Positions 28,620 through 38,902 of a DNA stretch of 64,000 nucleotides are shown here, piece by piece. The stretch covers positions 248,001 through 312,000 of the forward strand of contig NZ_AP021881.1 of assembly GCF_009937995.1 (NCBI RefSeq), read 5' to 3'. The notes beneath the pieces were generated by a model, which saw nothing but the letters and a program-made list of their open reading frames with translations, was not told where the DNA came from and searched no databases. Origin of the DNA: Sulfuriferula nivalis (GTDB taxonomy: Bacteria > Pseudomonadota > Gammaproteobacteria > Burkholderiales > Sulfuriferulaceae). A program made the position numbers and the translations under genes. Position 1 is the first letter of the stretch. The number at the start of each line of letters is the position of its first letter.

Positions 28620-30404
28620 TTGAAAAATTCTATCACCTGCCCGCTTTGGCTTTATAAGGTATTCCCATTCTTGCGTTGGTGGCCTACAGTAAGTAAGGCC
28701 ACTACTAAAGCTGATCTGATCGCAGGTTTGACCGGTGCAATGATAGTGTTGCCACAAGGTGTGGCATTTGCGACTATCGCCGGATTACCACCTGAATTTG
28801 GTCTGTATGCTGCAATGGTGCCGGCAATTATGGGGGCAATGTTTGGCTCCTCCTGGCATTTGGTCTCAGGGCCAACGACAGCTATTTCTATCGCAGTTTT
28901 TGCATCGGTAAGTCCCTATGCTGAACCTGGTTCAGCTCACTATATTAGCCTGGTATTGACGCTGACGTTTATGGCAGGTCTGTTCCAGTTGATTATGGGC
29001 ATGGCGCGTATGGGTGTGCTGGTTAATTTCATATCACATACAGTAGTTATCGGATTTACTGCTGGTGCTGCGGTATTAATTGCCGGTAGCCAGATTAAAA
29101 ATTTCCTGGGTTTGCAAATGGCGCGAGGCTTGCCATTTCATGAAGTGCTGGAGCAAGTTTATTTACAGTTTGATAAGATCAATCCATACGTAACTGCGGT
29201 AGGTGTGGTGACATTGGTGTCGGGCATAGTGTTGAAAAAATATATGCCTAAGTTGTATATGATATTAGCGATGGTGATCGGTAGTGTGGCCGCGCTGATT
29301 ATCAATCAGATGTATGGTGGTACCGATGTAACGCATATTAAAACTGTAGGTGCCTTGAGTGCGAGTTTGCCACCGCTGACACATCCTGATTTGTCGCTCA
29401 CTGCAATTAAGCAGGTGCTGTTCCCTTCATTGATTGTCACCATGCTGGCTTTGACTGAAGCAGTCTCTATTTCACGCGCAATAGCGGTGAAATCAGAACA
29501 GCGTATTGATGGCAATCAAGAGTTTATAGGACAAGGTTTGTCGAATATCTTCGGTAGCTTCTTTTCCAGTTATGCGTCCAGTGGTTCATTTAACCGTAGT
29601 GGTGTGAATTACGCGGCGGGCGCGAAAACGCCTTTGGCGGCGGTTTATTCTTCTGTCTTCCTGGTTATTATTCTTCTGCTGGTGGCATCACTGGCTGCAT
29701 ATTTACCTACTGCCGCAATGGCCGGGATATTGTTTCTGGTGGCGTATGGTCTGATCGATTTCCATCATATCCACTCGATTTTACATACCAGTCGTCAAGA
29801 GACAGCAATTTTAGCGGTCACTTTAATTGGTACGCTGGTTGATTTGGAAAAGGGGATATTCCTTGGCATTATGCTGTCGTTAATGCTTTATTTGTATCGT
29901 ACCTCACGTCCTGAAGTTGTCTCGGTTGTACCAGATGCTGAACCCGACAGTTACCATTATGTGCCACTTAATGGCTCGCCTGAGTGTCCACAATTAAAGA
30001 TTATACGTGTACATGGATCGGTTTTTTTCGGCGCTGTAAACCATGTTCAGCAAGTTTTATTAGATGTGGATGAGCATAATCCGCAGCAAAAATCTTTGTT
30101 GTTGGCATCCAGTGGAATGAGCTTTGTGGATGTGGCTGGTGCGGAAATGCTGGTGCAGGAAGCGCGTCGCCGCAAGAAAATTGGTGGTGGACTGTATTTC
30201 TATCGTATGCAAAACGATGTGCATGATTTGCTGGTTAAAGGTGAGTACATGGAAGAAATCGGCGAGAACAATAGCTTCCCTGCCAAATCACGTCCGATAG
30301 ACACTATTTATCCTAAGCTGGATAGTGAAATTTGCCGTAATTGTAGTGCGCGAATTTTTGCGCCTTGTCATCAGTCTTTACCTAATGGAGAACCTCGCAA
30401 GTGA
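28620..30404 (+). CDS. SulP-family anion transporter with STAS domain
   Basis: This 594-aa inner-membrane transporter has a SulP membrane domain (about residues 20-430) with the signature GLTGAMIVLPQGVAFA and the later SFNRSGVNYAAGAKTPLA, then a cytosolic STAS domain (about 455-560). A short tail holds three cysteines, CRNC and APCHQ, beyond the STAS fold. SulP members carry sulfate or bicarbonate. The 4-bp overlap (GTGA) with a gamma-carbonic anhydrase gene argues for bicarbonate uptake, an inference. The start is TTG at 28620, 5 nt after GAGG. Confidence 0.9.
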   Translation: MKNSITCPLWLYKVFPFLRWWPTVSKATTKADLIAGLTGAMIVLPQGVAFATIAGLPPEFGLYAAMVPAIMGAMFGSSWHLVSGPTTAISIAVFASVSPYAEPGSAHYISLVLTLTFMAGLFQLIMGMARMGVLVNFISHTVVIGFTAGAAVLIAGSQIKNFLGLQMARGLPFHEVLEQVYLQFDKINPYVTAVGVVTLVSGIVLKKYMPKLYMILAMVIGSVAALIINQMYGGTDVTHIKTVGALSASLPPLTHPDLSLTAIKQVLFPSLIVTMLALTEAVSISRAIAVKSEQRIDGNQEFIGQGLSNIFGSFFSSYASSGSFNRSGVNYAAGAKTPLAAVYSSVFLVIILLLVASLAAYLPTAAMAGILFLVAYGLIDFHHIHSILHTSRQETAILAVTLIGTLVDLEKGIFLGIMLSLMLYLYRTSRPEVVSVVPDAEPDSYHYVPLNGSPECPQLKIIRVHGSVFFGAVNHVQQVLLDVDEHNPQQKSLLLASSGMSFVDVAGAEMLVQEARRRKKIGGGLYFYRMQNDVHDLLVKGEYMEEIGENNSFPAKSRPIDTIYPKLDSEICRNCSARIFAPCHQSLPNGEPRK

Positions 30405-30961
30405 TACGTAAGAATCCAAGTGGTGATTTGCCTGTCATACATGAATCTGCATTTGTAGATCCAACCGCAATTATTTGCGGAAAGGTATTCATAGGTGAAA
30501 ATGTATTTATAGGACCTTATGCGGTGATACGTGCCGATGAGGTTGATGAAAATGGTGAAATGGAGCCGATTATTATTGGTGCGAATTCCAATATACAAGA
30601 TGGCGTCGTAATCCATTCCAAATCTGGTGCACGTGTTCAGATAGGTGAACATACATCGATAGCACATCGCTCTATTGTGCATGGACCATGTGTGGTTGGG
30701 GATAATGTATTTATAGGTTTTAACTCGGTATTGTTCAACTGTACTGTGGGCAAACGTTGTGTGGTGCGACATAACTCAGTAGTTGAGGCGTGTGCACTGC
30801 CAGATGGTTTCCATATCCCTTCTACCACCAATATTCATGCCGATTCGGATTTAAGTTTGGTCAAACAAGTTGGGTTTAGCGAGAAAGACTTTTCGGAGGA
30901 TGTCGCACAAACCAATATTAATTTGGTTAAGGGATATAAGAAATTGCAGAATGAGTTTTGA
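30401..30961 (+). CDS. Gamma-class carbonic anhydrase-like hexapeptide protein
   Basis: This 186-aa protein is a left-handed beta-helix with about seven hexapeptide turns (for example IGENVFIGPYAVIRAD). Three histidines in VVIHSKSG, SIAHRS and IVHGP occupy the zinc positions of gamma-carbonic anhydrases (Cam, CcmM N-domain). The start is GTG at 30401, overlapping the SulP stop by 4 bp. Coupling to a SulP transporter suggests that it converts CO2 and bicarbonate at the membrane. A non-catalytic hexapeptide transferase is the alternative. A strong terminator follows. Confidence 0.85.
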   Translation: MIRKNPSGDLPVIHESAFVDPTAIICGKVFIGENVFIGPYAVIRADEVDENGEMEPIIIGANSNIQDGVVIHSKSGARVQIGEHTSIAHRSIVHGPCVVGDNVFIGFNSVLFNCTVGKRCVVRHNSVVEACALPDGFHIPSTTNIHADSDLSLVKQVGFSEKDFSEDVAQTNINLVKGYKKLQNEF

Positions 30962-31014: not shown

Positions 31015-31052
31015 AAAAAGCCGCCTGTTCAATATTGAATAGGCGGCTTTTT
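31015..31052 (+). terminator. Strong terminator directly upstream of the second SulP gene
   Basis: AAAAAGCCGCCT and its complement form a 12-bp stem with a further inner stem GTTCAATATTGAAT, ending in five T. It lies 54 bp after the carbonic anhydrase stop and only about 5 bp before the next ribosome-binding site. Confidence 0.93.
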
Positions 31053-31068
31053 GTTTTGGAGTTGCACT

Positions 31069-32712
31069 ATGATCGTTTTAGTCGAAGCTTATCGAGCCGG
31101 TTTGTTTAAGCGCTATGATTTATTTAAAAATGTATTAGCTGGGGTGATAGTGGGTATTGTTGCCCTGCCTTTGGCCATGGCTTTTGCTATTGCGAGTGGT
31201 GCAAAGCCGGAACAAGGGATATACACAGCCATTATCGCAAGTCTGGTGACCAGCGTGTTTGGCGGCAGTCGGGTGCAGATATCGGGGCCTACTGGGGCGT
31301 TTATCGTCATTCTGGCAGGCATTACCGCGAAATATGGCTATGATGGTTTACAGATTGCCACGCTTATGGCTGGGGTAATACTCATCGCCATGGGTTTTGC
31401 CAAGTTCGGTACGGTGATACGGTATATTCCAAAACCGGTTATTACAGGCTTTACTACGGGTATCGCAGTGCTGATTTGGGTGGGGGAATGGAAGGACTTT
31501 TTTGGTTTGCATCCTGCAGAGATGGGGACGCATTTCCGCGATAAATTAATCCATTTGTTAATGGCATTGCCGACACTGCATATTGCAACCACGTTGCTGG
31601 CGGTGTTGGGGCTGGCGATACTCATTATTGCACCTCGATTTGTGAAGCGAGTGCCGGCGCCATTGATTGCCATGGTGGTGGTTACATTGGTGCAGTATGT
31701 AGGTGCGTTTCCAGGGGTTGCAACGATAGGCTCCGCATTTGGTGGTATTCCTTCCAGTTTGCCGGGTTTCCATTTTCCCGCGATGACTTATGCGCAAGTG
31801 GTGGAATTAATTGGCCCCGCATTTACGATTGCTTTACTTGGTGCAATAGAGTCATTGTTGTCCGCGGTAGTGGCTGATGGGATGGCCTGCACTAAGCATA
31901 ATTCTAATCAGGAGCTAATCGGGCAAGGTGCGGCTAACGTGTTATCGCCGATATTTGGCGGTTTTGCCGCAACTGGTGCGATTGCCCGGACTGCAACTAA
32001 TATCCGCAACGGTGCAACCAGTCCGCTGGCTGGCATCATTCATGCACTGACTTTGGTGCTGATTGTAGTCATGCTGGCACCGTTTGCAGCGTATATTCCA
32101 TTAGCGGCATTGGCAGCAATATTATTTGTAGTGGCGTGGAATATGAGCGAGATCCATCATTTCATAGCTATCGCTCGTCATGCACCTAAAAATGACAGGG
32201 CGTTGTTGCTGATTACGTTTACCCTGACGGTGTTTACCGATTTGGTGATCGCGGTCAATGTCGGGGTAATGTTAGCCGCCTTGTTATTTATGAAGCAAAT
32301 GACTGAATCAGTTAAAGTTCAAGGTGAAACAGATGAGAGTATGGTTGATTTCTGTCCCGTTGGCGTACCTAAAGGTGTGCAAATCTACTCTATAGATGGG
32401 CCTTTTTTCTTTGGTGCGGCATCAAGTTTTGAAAGTACGTTGGCCAGTTTGCACGAGAGTATGACGGTGCTGATTATTCGTATGGGGCGAGTGCCCTTTA
32501 TTGATGTGACTGGAATATATATGCTGAGGGATACTATAGCGCGTTTTCAGAAACGGGGTGTGCGAGTGATTCTGTGTGAGGCTAATCCAATTGTCCAGCG
32601 TAAGTTGGCGCAGTCAGGGGTGGATAAGTTGTTAGGCGATGAAAACTGGTTGAGTGATGTGAGTATGGCGCTATCATCCTTACCAGTTATCCAGAAAAAT
32701 GTTATATCGTAG
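31069..32712 (+). CDS. Second SulP-family anion transporter with STAS domain
   Basis: This 547-aa inner-membrane protein has a SulP domain with the signature LAGVIVGIVALPLAMAFAIASGAKPE (parts VIVGIVALPLAMAFAI and SGAKPE), the segment GPTGAFIVI, and a C-terminal STAS domain (about residues 435-540, motif VPFIDVTGIYML). It is clearly diverged from the first SulP copy. Substrate is sulfate or bicarbonate, unresolved. I chose the ATG at 31069, 7 nt after GGAG. The start at 31051 would lie inside the terminator stem. It converges with trmB 10 bp away. Confidence 0.9.
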   Translation: MIVLVEAYRAGLFKRYDLFKNVLAGVIVGIVALPLAMAFAIASGAKPEQGIYTAIIASLVTSVFGGSRVQISGPTGAFIVILAGITAKYGYDGLQIATLMAGVILIAMGFAKFGTVIRYIPKPVITGFTTGIAVLIWVGEWKDFFGLHPAEMGTHFRDKLIHLLMALPTLHIATTLLAVLGLAILIIAPRFVKRVPAPLIAMVVVTLVQYVGAFPGVATIGSAFGGIPSSLPGFHFPAMTYAQVVELIGPAFTIALLGAIESLLSAVVADGMACTKHNSNQELIGQGAANVLSPIFGGFAATGAIARTATNIRNGATSPLAGIIHALTLVLIVVMLAPFAAYIPLAALAAILFVVAWNMSEIHHFIAIARHAPKNDRALLLITFTLTVFTDLVIAVNVGVMLAALLFMKQMTESVKVQGETDESMVDFCPVGVPKGVQIYSIDGPFFFGAASSFESTLASLHESMTVLIIRMGRVPFIDVTGIYMLRDTIARFQKRGVRVILCEANPIVQRKLAQSGVDKLLGDENWLSDVSMALSSLPVIQKNVIS

Positions 32713-34526: not shown

Positions 34527-34600
34527 GCGGGTGTAGTTCAATGGCAGAACTTTTGCTTCCCAAGCAAATAGCGTGGGTTCGATTCCCATCACCCGCTCCA
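34527..34600 (+). tRNA. tRNA-Gly(CCC)
   Basis: A complete cloverleaf is visible. The acceptor stem is GCGGGTG/CACCCGC, the anticodon arm is TTTGC-TTCCCAA-GCAAA with anticodon CCC, and the T arm is GTGGG-TTCGATT-CCCAT. Discriminator T and an encoded CCA follow. The anticodon CCC reads the GGG glycine codon. Confidence 0.96.
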
Positions 34601-34675: not shown

Positions 34676-34769
34676 CACTTGAAAAACGCAAACTTGGTGA
34701 AAGCTAAGGACGCAAAACTTCCAGTCTAATGCGTGAGTTGTGACGCGATGATAGTGGGGTTACCAAGTG
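34676..34769 (+). promoter_or_regulatory. GEMM-I (cyclic-di-GMP-I type) riboswitch
   Basis: The conserved GEMM pieces occur in order. GCAAAC (34688) comes first. A stem CTTGG/CTAAG with GAAA tetraloop follows (34693-34709), then GGACGCAAAACTTCC and GTCTAA, the tetraloop-receptor strand. GGGGTTACCAAGTG closes the domain. A closing P1 stem CACTTG (34676-34681) pairs with CAAGTG (34764-34769). Downstream, CCAGTTGGTA (34793-34802) can pair with TACCAAGTGG (34761-34770) with one mismatch, an alternative to P1. A hairpin CCATCA-TTG-TGATGG (34811-34825) stands just before the AGGAGG of the DUF1631 gene. Confidence 0.93.
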
Positions 34770-34842
34770 GGTGGTTAATATACCCATTAATGCCAGTTGG
34801 TATGTGTCATCCATCATTGTGATGGTTGAGGAGGTATGTAAA

Positions 34843-37188
34843 ATGAGTCAGCGTAACGTTGTGTCTTTACCGCAATTTGATAAGTCTCGGAATGTACTGA
34901 GTGCAGCTGATGTGATGGTGGTGCTAAATGCCTGCCGTGACCAGCTTATCACCGCTGTTGATCTCGTTTGGAATGAGCGGCGTGATAAAATCGAAGATGA
35001 CTTATTGGATTTTGCCGATCGCTCTCCTTTATTAGAAACACGTAATCTCTATTACGCGGCACAGAGTTTGTTGCGTAATCGAAATGAATCTCTCTCTACT
35101 GCAATCCGACAACAGTTTGTGCAGCAATTTGACAAGCAAGTTCGCGGGGATCAGCAAACTGAAAAACCGGATGTTGGCGTTGATTTAGATCTTTCCCTGA
35201 TTGACGAGGATGCATTTGAAGAAAGTTTGGCGTTAAGCAAGGCATCAACGCGGATGCAGTCCAGCTCGGTTGAGGAGTTAGCTGCTTTGGATCAGCGTAT
35301 AGCTGCTTTAATGCATCAGTCTCACAGTAAATCCTCAATTAACCCGTTGGCACCAAAATTGATTTGTGATGCCTTTTTAGAAGCGTGCAAAACAATAGAT
35401 GCAACTGCACGGATGCGCCTAGTGTTATTGCAGCACTTTGATGCGCATATTGCGCCTATGATGCCTGGTATTTATCGTGGTTTGAATCAATATCTGGTTG
35501 ATAAAGGGATATTGCCAAATATTAAGATAGGTGCAACTGCGCCGCGTGAACGACATCAGCCTCCAGCTCCCATGGTAGCCAGTGCCACTGATTTAGGAGG
35601 CAATGTTGGTGCGGCCATGCCATCTGCACCCAGTGCCGAAGATGGTACTGATGTTTTTGCATTGTTGCAGCAATTATTTATGAAACAGTTTGCGAGCCAA
35701 TCGGGCAGCCCTGTGGGGATGTCGCAGGGGTTTATTGGTGGAGTAGGTGGAGTAGGTGGAGTAGGTGGAGTAGGTGGAGTAGGTGGAGTAGGTGGTGGCG
35801 CCGCAGTGGGTGGTGGCTTACCACCAGTTTCGTTACATGAGCGTATTGCTTCATTAACAACTTTACAGCGTGGTCAATACACTGGTTTGGTCAATACTGG
35901 ATTTGATCCCGCATTGATCCAGGCAGGTACTGCTAATGTCCTGCGGGATATGCGTGATGCTGGGTTGGTTCAGGTTGATAATCAGGCAGATAGTTTGACT
36001 ATAGATATTGTAGCCATGCTGTTTGATTACGTTTTTGATGATAAAAACATTCCTGCTGAACTTAAAGCCCTGATAGGTCGGTTGCAAATTCCTGTATTGA
36101 AAGTGGCGCTGCTAGATAAGCAATTCTTTTCTAAAAAATCCCACCCTGCACGGCGGTTGCTGGATGAAATTGCGGAAGTATCGGTTGGCTGGACTCAGCA
36201 AGGGGCAAGCAATATTGCCTTATTCGATAAAATTGAGTCTATTGTACAGTCCGTGCTCAATGATTTTACTGATGATGCTGGGATTTTTGAGCGGTTGCTG
36301 CTGGATCTGCAGGAATTCGTTGCTACAAATGAGGCTGAGACTCAAACTGCCGTCGCTGAAACGACCACTATTATTGAAACAGCTGAACGTGCTCAACTTG
36401 CTCAAACTGTTGTGAAAGATGAGATTGCCAAGGCGCTGGCTGTACATGAGGGGTTGCCTGAGGTTATTGTTGAATTTGTACAGACTATATGGCAGCAAGT
36501 ATTGACGCATGTGTATCTGCAAGAGCATGAGTTGGGCGCGGCGTGGTATGAAGCATTGCAGACTATGCAGAATCTGATCTGGAGTGTGACCCCTAAACTT
36601 AATAATGACGACAGGTTAAAATTGGTCGCCATGTTACCAAGTTTGCTGAATCAATTACGTGATGGTATGTCATTTCTGAATATGGAAATTGAGCGACGCG
36701 ATGCGATTTTTGCGGGTTTGGTTGCGTGCCACGCAGTAGCAGTTAAAGCAGGTCTGCAAGTGAAATCAGAGCTGGTGCGCGATGAAGAAATGGTTAAAGC
36801 GATTGAAGCTGCACAGCTTGATGTGCCTGAAACGCTACCGGAAATTGCCGCGCTTGATGAGGTCGTTGTGAATATGGATGCTGAGTTTTCAGCATCAGCC
36901 GATATTGATGAAGAAGATGAATTCACGGAACAAGCCAGATGTTTGAAAAAAGGTGAGTGGTTGAGTTTTGATAATGCCAATGGCACTACTAGAAATGCCC
37001 GTCTATCATGGGTGTCTGGTTTGCGGGGCATGTATTTGTTTACTAATAAACAGGGGTTGGATGCGATGACTATCGCCTTACCTCGTTTAGCGGCAAGATT
37101 GCGTGCAGGCGAAGCGCATGTGATTAAAGCAAACTCGCTGACTGAACGCGCTGTTGAACGCTTAATAGGGAAATTGCAAGGTCGTTAG
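34843..37188 (+). CDS. DUF1631-family protein under riboswitch control
   Basis: This 781-aa soluble protein matches the large betaproteobacterial DUF1631 family, whose function is not established. It is mostly helical, with an N-terminal region around residues 30-130 and a low-complexity linker of six Gly-Gly-Val units (about 299-316). Helical regions follow to about residue 680. The last 85 residues (KKGEWLSFDNANG, RLSWVSGLRGMYLFTNKQG) look like a beta-barrel of PilZ type, an inference. The ATG at 34843 follows AGGAGG by 8 nt. An earlier in-frame start at 34771 lies just after the riboswitch and is rejected. The c-di-GMP riboswitch upstream suggests a role in motility or surface life. Confidence 0.85.
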   Translation: MSQRNVVSLPQFDKSRNVLSAADVMVVLNACRDQLITAVDLVWNERRDKIEDDLLDFADRSPLLETRNLYYAAQSLLRNRNESLSTAIRQQFVQQFDKQVRGDQQTEKPDVGVDLDLSLIDEDAFEESLALSKASTRMQSSSVEELAALDQRIAALMHQSHSKSSINPLAPKLICDAFLEACKTIDATARMRLVLLQHFDAHIAPMMPGIYRGLNQYLVDKGILPNIKIGATAPRERHQPPAPMVASATDLGGNVGAAMPSAPSAEDGTDVFALLQQLFMKQFASQSGSPVGMSQGFIGGVGGVGGVGGVGGVGGVGGGAAVGGGLPPVSLHERIASLTTLQRGQYTGLVNTGFDPALIQAGTANVLRDMRDAGLVQVDNQADSLTIDIVAMLFDYVFDDKNIPAELKALIGRLQIPVLKVALLDKQFFSKKSHPARRLLDEIAEVSVGWTQQGASNIALFDKIESIVQSVLNDFTDDAGIFERLLLDLQEFVATNEAETQTAVAETTTIIETAERAQLAQTVVKDEIAKALAVHEGLPEVIVEFVQTIWQQVLTHVYLQEHELGAAWYEALQTMQNLIWSVTPKLNNDDRLKLVAMLPSLLNQLRDGMSFLNMEIERRDAIFAGLVACHAVAVKAGLQVKSELVRDEEMVKAIEAAQLDVPETLPEIAALDEVVVNMDAEFSASADIDEEDEFTEQARCLKKGEWLSFDNANGTTRNARLSWVSGLRGMYLFTNKQGLDAMTIALPRLAARLRAGEAHVIKANSLTERAVERLIGKLQGR
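35737..35790 (+). repeat. Six tandem 9-bp repeats (GGTGGAGTA)
   Basis: Six identical copies of GGTGGAGTA encode Gly-Gly-Val units in the DUF1631 protein. Identity at the DNA level, including the wobble bases, points to recent slippage. Copy changes would keep the frame. Confidence 0.95.
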
Positions 37189-37234: not shown

Positions 37235-38902
37235 TCAGTAAGTGATAATTGCTTGTACATGCAGCCAGGTGTCACCTTTTTCTAATACATGAGCAAGTTT
37301 GACCAGATGGGTTTCGTGACCCATAGTAACTTTAAATGTACGGTTGCCGGAATATTGGGCACCATCAATAATTAAATTGAATTGTGCGTTGACGATGTTA
37401 GTGGTCATGATGACGGGAATAGGTAAATTGTCATCAATTGCACTCACTTCATGTGCTAGTGCAAGTTGTGGTGTGGTTGGAAGTGTGGCGACATGTAGCA
37501 TGAGTACAGCAGGATGTTGGGCGACAACTTCCATCCCTGCGTGTGTACCTTCTGTTGGTGCACGAAACAGACGTCTAACGACTGCAAGTTTCCAAAATTT
37601 TTCACCGTCGGCACGAACTGCCACTAAACGACTTAGTCTTAACCAGTCATTTTTAGTTGATGGGATTTTTGTGCGATAACCTTCAATACTTTCGTCTTCG
37701 ACTCCCCAGTGCTCACATGCAATTTCAGTTGAGTTGGGTTTCGGTACACTCTGATGTTGGCGGTTTTTGGTTGCCTCGGTGACAAAACCATAAAGTTGAA
37801 TGTCTACCATCTCGGCATATTTAATATCGGCATCAAATTCTTGAATTTGCTCAGTATCTTCGGCTGTGTCTTTAATAGCCGAACAGATTTTGTTGAATCC
37901 ATGTATGACATACAGGATTTTTTTAACGGCAAGGCGAGGGCTTTTGCGTAACTTGCCAAGATTGATAGGATCCCACTGACGTTCCAGATAGTCGAGCATC
38001 TTCAGGTGCTCGGCTAAGTTGAGTTGTGAATCGGTTTGAGGTTTCGCAGTATGTAATTCGTCCTGTGTGCGTCTAAGTTGCCCCAGTAATATGGATGCAT
38101 CCCAGCACAAAAAATTATCCGGGTAGTCGCGATCGGTTACGGGCATTGCCCCTGTGGGTTGTGATGGGTCGACATAAAAATGGTGTTGGGCAAACTTGGG
38201 GTGTTTTTCAAGGTTAACCAGATGTATCCATTTTTTGAGCCAGTGGTCTGCAATTTCAATTTCTCTGGCGGGTAATGCGCTGGGATGGATTTGTGTAAGT
38301 AAAAGTGCGCGTATATATTGTGCTGTGCATTTTGACTGTTTATCACCATACATTAATACTGATAGTTCGGCATAGTTGTGACTATCGGCATGTTGGAACA
38401 GTTTGTGCAGGATGCGCCAGAGTTTTTCATCAGGTTGTTCAAAATGAAAAAAACGCCATTTAAATAAATTTCCCAGATTGTGTAAGGCGCGAACCGTCAG
38501 TACAGGTAACAGTGCTTGTTGTTTTACTAGGCTGGGTTCTGCAACTATTGTGTTGATGTGGCTGTAATAAGCTAAGCTGATTTCACTGTAATAGGCATAA
38601 ATGGCCTGCCATAACTTAGTTTCAACAGCAGTTGATATGCGTGTGTTACGTAAATATTGTTTGCATAGCATTTTTTGTATGGGCTGCGCATATTCATCCA
38701 GCGCTAAGAGCACATCCAGGCTATCAGGGTTGTATTCACTATCTTTGTTACGCAAGCGTATCAGTGCGTTTAATATTTCAGCATGATTATCGGTTGAGTC
38801 TGTATTGGGGAACTCATTCAACCAATTCATCACCGCTTTGCGATTGGCGAGAGGATCTGTGGAGGCGCTAGTTTTATTTAAGAAAGATAGAAAATTCAAC
38901 AT
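37235..38902 (-). CDS. Uncharacterised 555-aa protein, possible PilZ-like C-terminus
   Basis: I do not recognise a named family. The product is soluble, without signal peptide or membrane helices. Residues about 1-390 are helical and rich in aromatic residues, with LHNLGNLFKWRFFHF and YVIHGFNKICSAI as likely core segments. The C-terminal 150 residues are beta-rich: WLRLSRLVAVRADGEKFWKLAVVRRLFR (parts LSRLVAVRADG and WKLAVVRRLFR) and GMEVVAQHPAVLML. This resembles the PilZ-like barrels seen at the end of other betaproteobacterial proteins, an inference. It converges on the DUF1631 gene with a 46-bp gap, which hints at a shared c-di-GMP context. Confidence 0.7.
   Translation of the reverse strand: MLNFLSFLNKTSASTDPLANRKAVMNWLNEFPNTDSTDNHAEILNALIRLRNKDSEYNPDSLDVLLALDEYAQPIQKMLCKQYLRNTRISTAVETKLWQAIYAYYSEISLAYYSHINTIVAEPSLVKQQALLPVLTVRALHNLGNLFKWRFFHFEQPDEKLWRILHKLFQHADSHNYAELSVLMYGDKQSKCTAQYIRALLLTQIHPSALPAREIEIADHWLKKWIHLVNLEKHPKFAQHHFYVDPSQPTGAMPVTDRDYPDNFLCWDASILLGQLRRTQDELHTAKPQTDSQLNLAEHLKMLDYLERQWDPINLGKLRKSPRLAVKKILYVIHGFNKICSAIKDTAEDTEQIQEFDADIKYAEMVDIQLYGFVTEATKNRQHQSVPKPNSTEIACEHWGVEDESIEGYRTKIPSTKNDWLRLSRLVAVRADGEKFWKLAVVRRLFRAPTEGTHAGMEVVAQHPAVLMLHVATLPTTPQLALAHEVSAIDDNLPIPVIMTTNIVNAQFNLIIDGAQYSGNRTFKVTMGHETHLVKLAHVLEKGDTWLHVQAIITY

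Follow-up and report, generated by a model that had tools for sequence, protein, structure and literature searches.

A GEMM-I riboswitch with a rare cytosine at its ligand-discriminating base upstream of a DUF1631 gene in Sulfuriferula nivalis

The leader of a DUF1631 gene in Sulfuriferula nivalis contains a genuine riboswitch of the GEMM-I family, with a rare cytosine at the base that discriminates between ligands. The element lies in a window of 64,000 nucleotides (the whole stretch of DNA analysed, to which all positions refer), where the plus strand at 34677-34767 matches the Rfam covariance model RF01051 (c-di-GMP-I/GEMM-I) over positions 1-87 of 87, with 73.2 bits and E 1.9e-12 against a gathering score of 35 bits; it is the sole RF01051 element in the 3.4-Mb genome. 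This significant match bears out the c-di-GMP-I riboswitch that a preliminary description had placed upstream of the DUF1631 gene. We read the element as a translational OFF switch for DUF1631 in which recognition of c-di-GMP would be weakened or altered, and give this reading a probability of about 0.5. Membership of the family, the C at position 20 and the recurrent linkage with DUF1631 are computed results; the ligand, the direction of control and the switch in pairing are inferred from them. The aptamer and the genes on either side of it are laid out as follows:

34527-34597, plus strand: tRNA-Gly gene, the upstream neighbour (RF00005, 70.8 bits)
34676-34681, plus strand: 5' strand of P1, CACTTG, pairing with 34764-34769
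34677-34767, plus strand: GEMM-I aptamer (Rfam RF01051)
34687, plus strand: C in place of Vc2 G20, the base that discriminates between ligands (Rfam position 11)
34688-34713, plus strand: P2 with its GAAA tetraloop (34699-34702), from the Rfam alignment, core bases normal
34714, plus strand: A at the position of Vc2 A47, which intercalates in the ligand (aptamer comparison)
34763, plus strand: C at the position of Vc2 C92 (aptamer comparison)
34764-34769, plus strand: 3' strand of P1, CAAGTG, pairing with 34676-34681
34843-37188, plus strand: DUF1631 gene, 781 aa (PF07793, E 2.9e-180)

In its architecture the element follows Vc2 of Vibrio cholerae, the type member of GEMM-I (GEMM-Ia), with which it has P1, P2, P3, the GAAA tetraloop, A47 and C92 in common, together with an equivalent of the P2-P3 contact base C44; Vc2 differs in carrying a G at position 20, where a C is found here. 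The A47 equivalent, invariant across the 98 standard-length aptamers compared, is present as A34714, the C92 equivalent (C in 114/114 aptamers) is C34763, and the remaining near-invariant core bases, all but position 20, are normal. The core had been described as complete, which fails at Rfam position 11. For the P1 3' strand, given previously as TACCAAGTGG at 34761-34770, letters and coordinates are right but the extent is not, since alignment to Vc2 confines the strand to 34764-34769. Most pairs of the P2 helix differ from those of the sister sequence in G017, the closest relative that carries this locus (71% protein identity), yet the pairing is kept, which is what selection on the fold would predict.

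Vc2 G20 corresponds to model position 11 of the RF01051 alignment, and the offset in PMC11218506 is identical, its G11 and A38 corresponding to Vc2 G20 and A47. Of the 114 Burkholderiales aptamers read, 109 carry G at base 20, three carry A and two carry C, so that G is a majority feature of RF01051 (109/114) rather than an invariant one, and it is absent here. Among the 42 aptamers paired with DUF1631, G is found in 41 and C solely in the 34677-34767 copy; the aptamer of G017 has G. The A that defines GEMM-Ib is not present at 34687 either: the GEMM-Ib (3',3'-cGAMP) riboswitches of Geobacter have the scaffold in common with our element, and base 20 is changed in both, but to A in Geobacter and to C here. 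Three Burkholderiales aptamers do carry this GEMM-Ib/cGAMP signature (L021 in G041, L025 in G050 and L194 in G149). The second C20 aptamer belongs to another Burkholderiales family (L157:561-645, G274:C1:558060-558144), has a normal core and sits upstream of a frame resembling a secreted subtilisin-type protease. Further pattern matches at class level, in G635, G324 and G470, had no complementary P2 and were taken as chance. No natural C20 GEMM-I RNA came up in a search of the open literature, and the novelty of C20 is unproven.

Starting from a AAAACGGC-type ancestor, the C could have arisen by either of two routes, two substitutions or the loss of a G with the gain of an A, and the structural result would be identical. 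It is less likely that G34688 acts as G20, which would lose the outer P2 pair. A sequencing error at 34687 is still conceivable, though with 3 contigs and 99.94% the genome is close to complete.

Mutation of G20 in Vc2 lowers c-di-GMP binding about 30,000-fold, while G12U at the matching position of Vc1 keeps some binding (PMC4744006). Base 20 has been described as a selectivity factor, not a hard filter (PMC9262584), and A20G in a Geobacter RNA turns the preference from cGAMP to c-di-GMP (PMC6456294). With C in place of G20, recognition of c-di-GMP is most likely weaker than in the relatives, or specificity is shifted, and the ligand is less secure than was assumed at first because the discriminating base itself has changed, a base that the preliminary description named only as a point to check. 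This copy may be a c-di-GMP sensor that has weakened, a switch that has decayed or a variant of changed specificity.

At the level of the gene family the signal is clearer. GEMM-I is matched in 115 and DUF1631 in 126 of 300 sampled Burkholderiales genomes, and aptamer-gene pairs were drawn from the 150 GEMM-I and 150 DUF1631 matches listed, so that the counts are lower bounds. Among the matches listed, at least 42 pairs share a strand and lie no more than 3 kb apart, and in at least 38 of them the distance to the Pfam match is at most 400 bp; in three pairs with a longer gap, the frame directly 3' of the aptamer opens with the DUF1631 N-terminus. DUF1631 is directly downstream of at least 41 of the 150 listed GEMM-I aptamers, across 11 families (the pair in G188 was left out of this count), and an aptamer is present at 33 of the 45 best DUF1631 matches. 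Distant Burkholderiales DUF1631 genes that were found independently (33-35% identity, full-length alignment) also have the aptamer, all with G20. The family-level link to c-di-GMP is strong, and since GEMM-I repeatedly targets DUF1631 genes in Burkholderiales, c-di-GMP is taken to be the ancestral signal.

The same genome encodes a DUF1631 paralogue of 1191 aa with the arrangement PilZ-DUF1631-GGDEF-EAL (L155:1127-4699, minus strand, G000:C1 near 1.70 Mb), which ties DUF1631 to c-di-GMP independently. Long frames of this kind that match DUF1631 are also present elsewhere in the genus. The tie proposed in the preliminary description from one leader is thus supported more strongly than could be known at that point: the aptamers recur in 11 families and, together with the PilZ-DUF1631-GGDEF-EAL fusion, place DUF1631 in c-di-GMP signalling, where its function can be tested. 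In turn, the C20 copy offers a natural experiment on the ligand-choice base of the best-studied cyclic-dinucleotide riboswitch.

A real, if lesser, possibility is that the riboswitch is decaying or dead, G20C having removed useful binding and left a folded leader with effectively constitutive DUF1631 translation. Its C is near-unique among DUF1631-linked aptamers (1/42), and the large affinity loss of the Vc2 G20 mutants (PMC4744006) suggests that c-di-GMP binding may be gone. In a tree of same-genus DUF1631 loci, moreover, the aptamer is present at 8/15 and absent at 7/15, with at least two changes of state. No aptamer remnants were found, at E up to 1, before the seven genes that lack it (L042, L043, L044, L045, L047, L048 and L049). 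These seven loci keep the upstream tRNA gene with no detectable aptamer, which points to repeated loss and to an aptamer that is dispensable; a tRNA upstream of DUF1631 is also seen in L031, L032 and most same-genus DUF1631 loci. Against decay, the rest of the core is intact at 73.2 bits, the helices still pair despite their divergence from G017, and the second C20 aptamer, in a different family, has a normal core.

It is rather unlikely, though worth considering, that the C20 aptamer is a working variant in specificity or affinity, which reads a cyclic dinucleotide through the cytosine and switches a DUF1631 protein of the c-di-GMP network. Such reading might, for instance, bring a protonated C up to the Hoogsteen edge of G, or bring C together with adenine. 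Decidedly unlikely is the narrower proposal of a shifted preference, in which C20 would select a different cyclic dinucleotide, such as one that presents adenine to base 20, much as A20 in GEMM-Ib selects 3',3'-cGAMP. Ligand choice is indeed set by base 20 (PMC6456294, PMC9262584). By hydrogen-bond pattern, C would also be closer to A than to G. The signalling proteins of the host argue the other way. Its genome has 44 GGDEF matches, so c-di-GMP is surely present. The Hypr enzymes that make cGAMP carry Ser at the substrate-selectivity position of GGDEF, but the usual Asp occupies it in 29/29 readable of the 30 best GGDEF domains, and no Hypr-type GGDEF was seen among these best 30. All relatives of the same gene have G20, which indicates that the regulon is a c-di-GMP one.

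The preferred reading, an OFF switch acting on translation with weakened or altered recognition of c-di-GMP, would operate through the part of the leader that follows the aptamer:

34766-34788, plus strand: anti-P1 hairpin with arms 34766-34772 and 34782-34788, which uses the P1 3' strand (minimum-energy fold)
34778-34784, plus strand: AUAUACC, candidate anti-SD freed on P1 formation, pairing with 34833-34839 (fold without the P1 strand)
34790-34803, plus strand: predicted local hairpin, enclosing the strand 34793-34802 of the preliminary description (fold)
34811-34825, plus strand: hairpin directly before the ribosome-binding site (sequence)
34829-34834, plus strand: ribosome-binding site AGGAGG, 8 nt before the ATG at 34843

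With no ligand, the P1 3' strand would be held in the hairpin at 34766-34788 and the ribosome-binding site would be comparatively free (ON). When ligand is bound, P1 would form and this hairpin would be undone; the AUAUACC set free could then engage the ribosome-binding site by pairing with GGUAUGU at 34833-34839 (OFF). The mode proposed is that of Vc2, which acts as an OFF switch on translation (PMC9262584). Control of translation rather than transcription, as suggested previously, is supported by the lack of an intrinsic terminator before the DUF1631 gene, the sole terminator-like site being at 34849, inside the gene. The hairpin at 34811-34825, the AGGAGG and the ATG had been read correctly, in letters as in coordinates.

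Predicted accessibility of the SD falls here from 0.56 when free to 0.42 with P1 formed, a value that 12% of shuffles reach. On P1 formation it also falls in G012 (0.74 to 0.21), G014 (0.68 to 0.59) and G017 (0.30 to 0.24), while G013 and G008 show no effect. The control consisted of dinucleotide shuffles of the spacer, of which 0.7% to 18% per case reach the value; as these effects are modest and two relatives show none, the OFF direction is a supported guess and not a result. An anti-P1 hairpin of like kind is predicted in G012, G014 and G017, and the logic of P1 formation appears to be common to G012 and G014 with other letters, and weakly to G017. Hairpins at the place of 34790-34803 are found in G012, G013 and G014, again with other letters, and relatives also have hairpins at the place of 34811-34825. 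The expression platforms of other families differ. A switch through the alternative pairing first put forward, 34761-34770 with CCAGTTGGTA at 34793-34802, is highly improbable: its complementarity to the upstream strand is real (9/10 letters, one mismatch), but the stretch folds about 3 kcal/mol better when unconstrained (-29.2 vs -26.2 kcal/mol), into a structure that holds the P1-proximal hairpin instead, the strand 34793-34802 lies in a local hairpin of its own, and relatives lack the partner sequence and do not keep the pairing.

The protein under this control is a full-length DUF1631 member (PF07793, 601.8 bits vs a cut-off of 33.7) whose nearest named relatives come from Sulfuriferula metagenome-assembled genomes. 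It reaches 200.5 bits with the PacR model (NCBIfam NF058594) against a curated cut-off of 1200, and is therefore not PacR itself. The literature searched holds no established role for DUF1631, and nothing relevant to GEMM elements ahead of DUF1631, or to PacR together with c-di-GMP, turned up in the open literature; the novelty of the link is unproven. A search by sequence found no relative of DUF1631 with a solved structure. The full-length model (mean pLDDT 52) is not usable; the C-terminal model shows a small barrel with block pLDDT 83-89 over residues 41-100 of a 122-residue segment. Its best PDB rows, a TraI domain and Tudor-type domains, are middling matches, and the predicted barrel would neither show nor exclude nucleotide binding. 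A hidden PilZ in the C-terminus was also considered; Pfam gave no PilZ match and the fold rows listed contain none, which does not amount to proof that it is absent.

Elsewhere in the window, a 555-aa protein with no Pfam or NCBIfam match is encoded at 37235-38902 on the minus strand, convergent with the DUF1631 gene. Upstream, two SulP-type transporter frames are found on the plus strand at 28620-30404 and 31051-32712, the first recognised by eye and the second checked by Pfam, and between them lies a short frame (30401-30961) with a hexapeptide-repeat look by eye.
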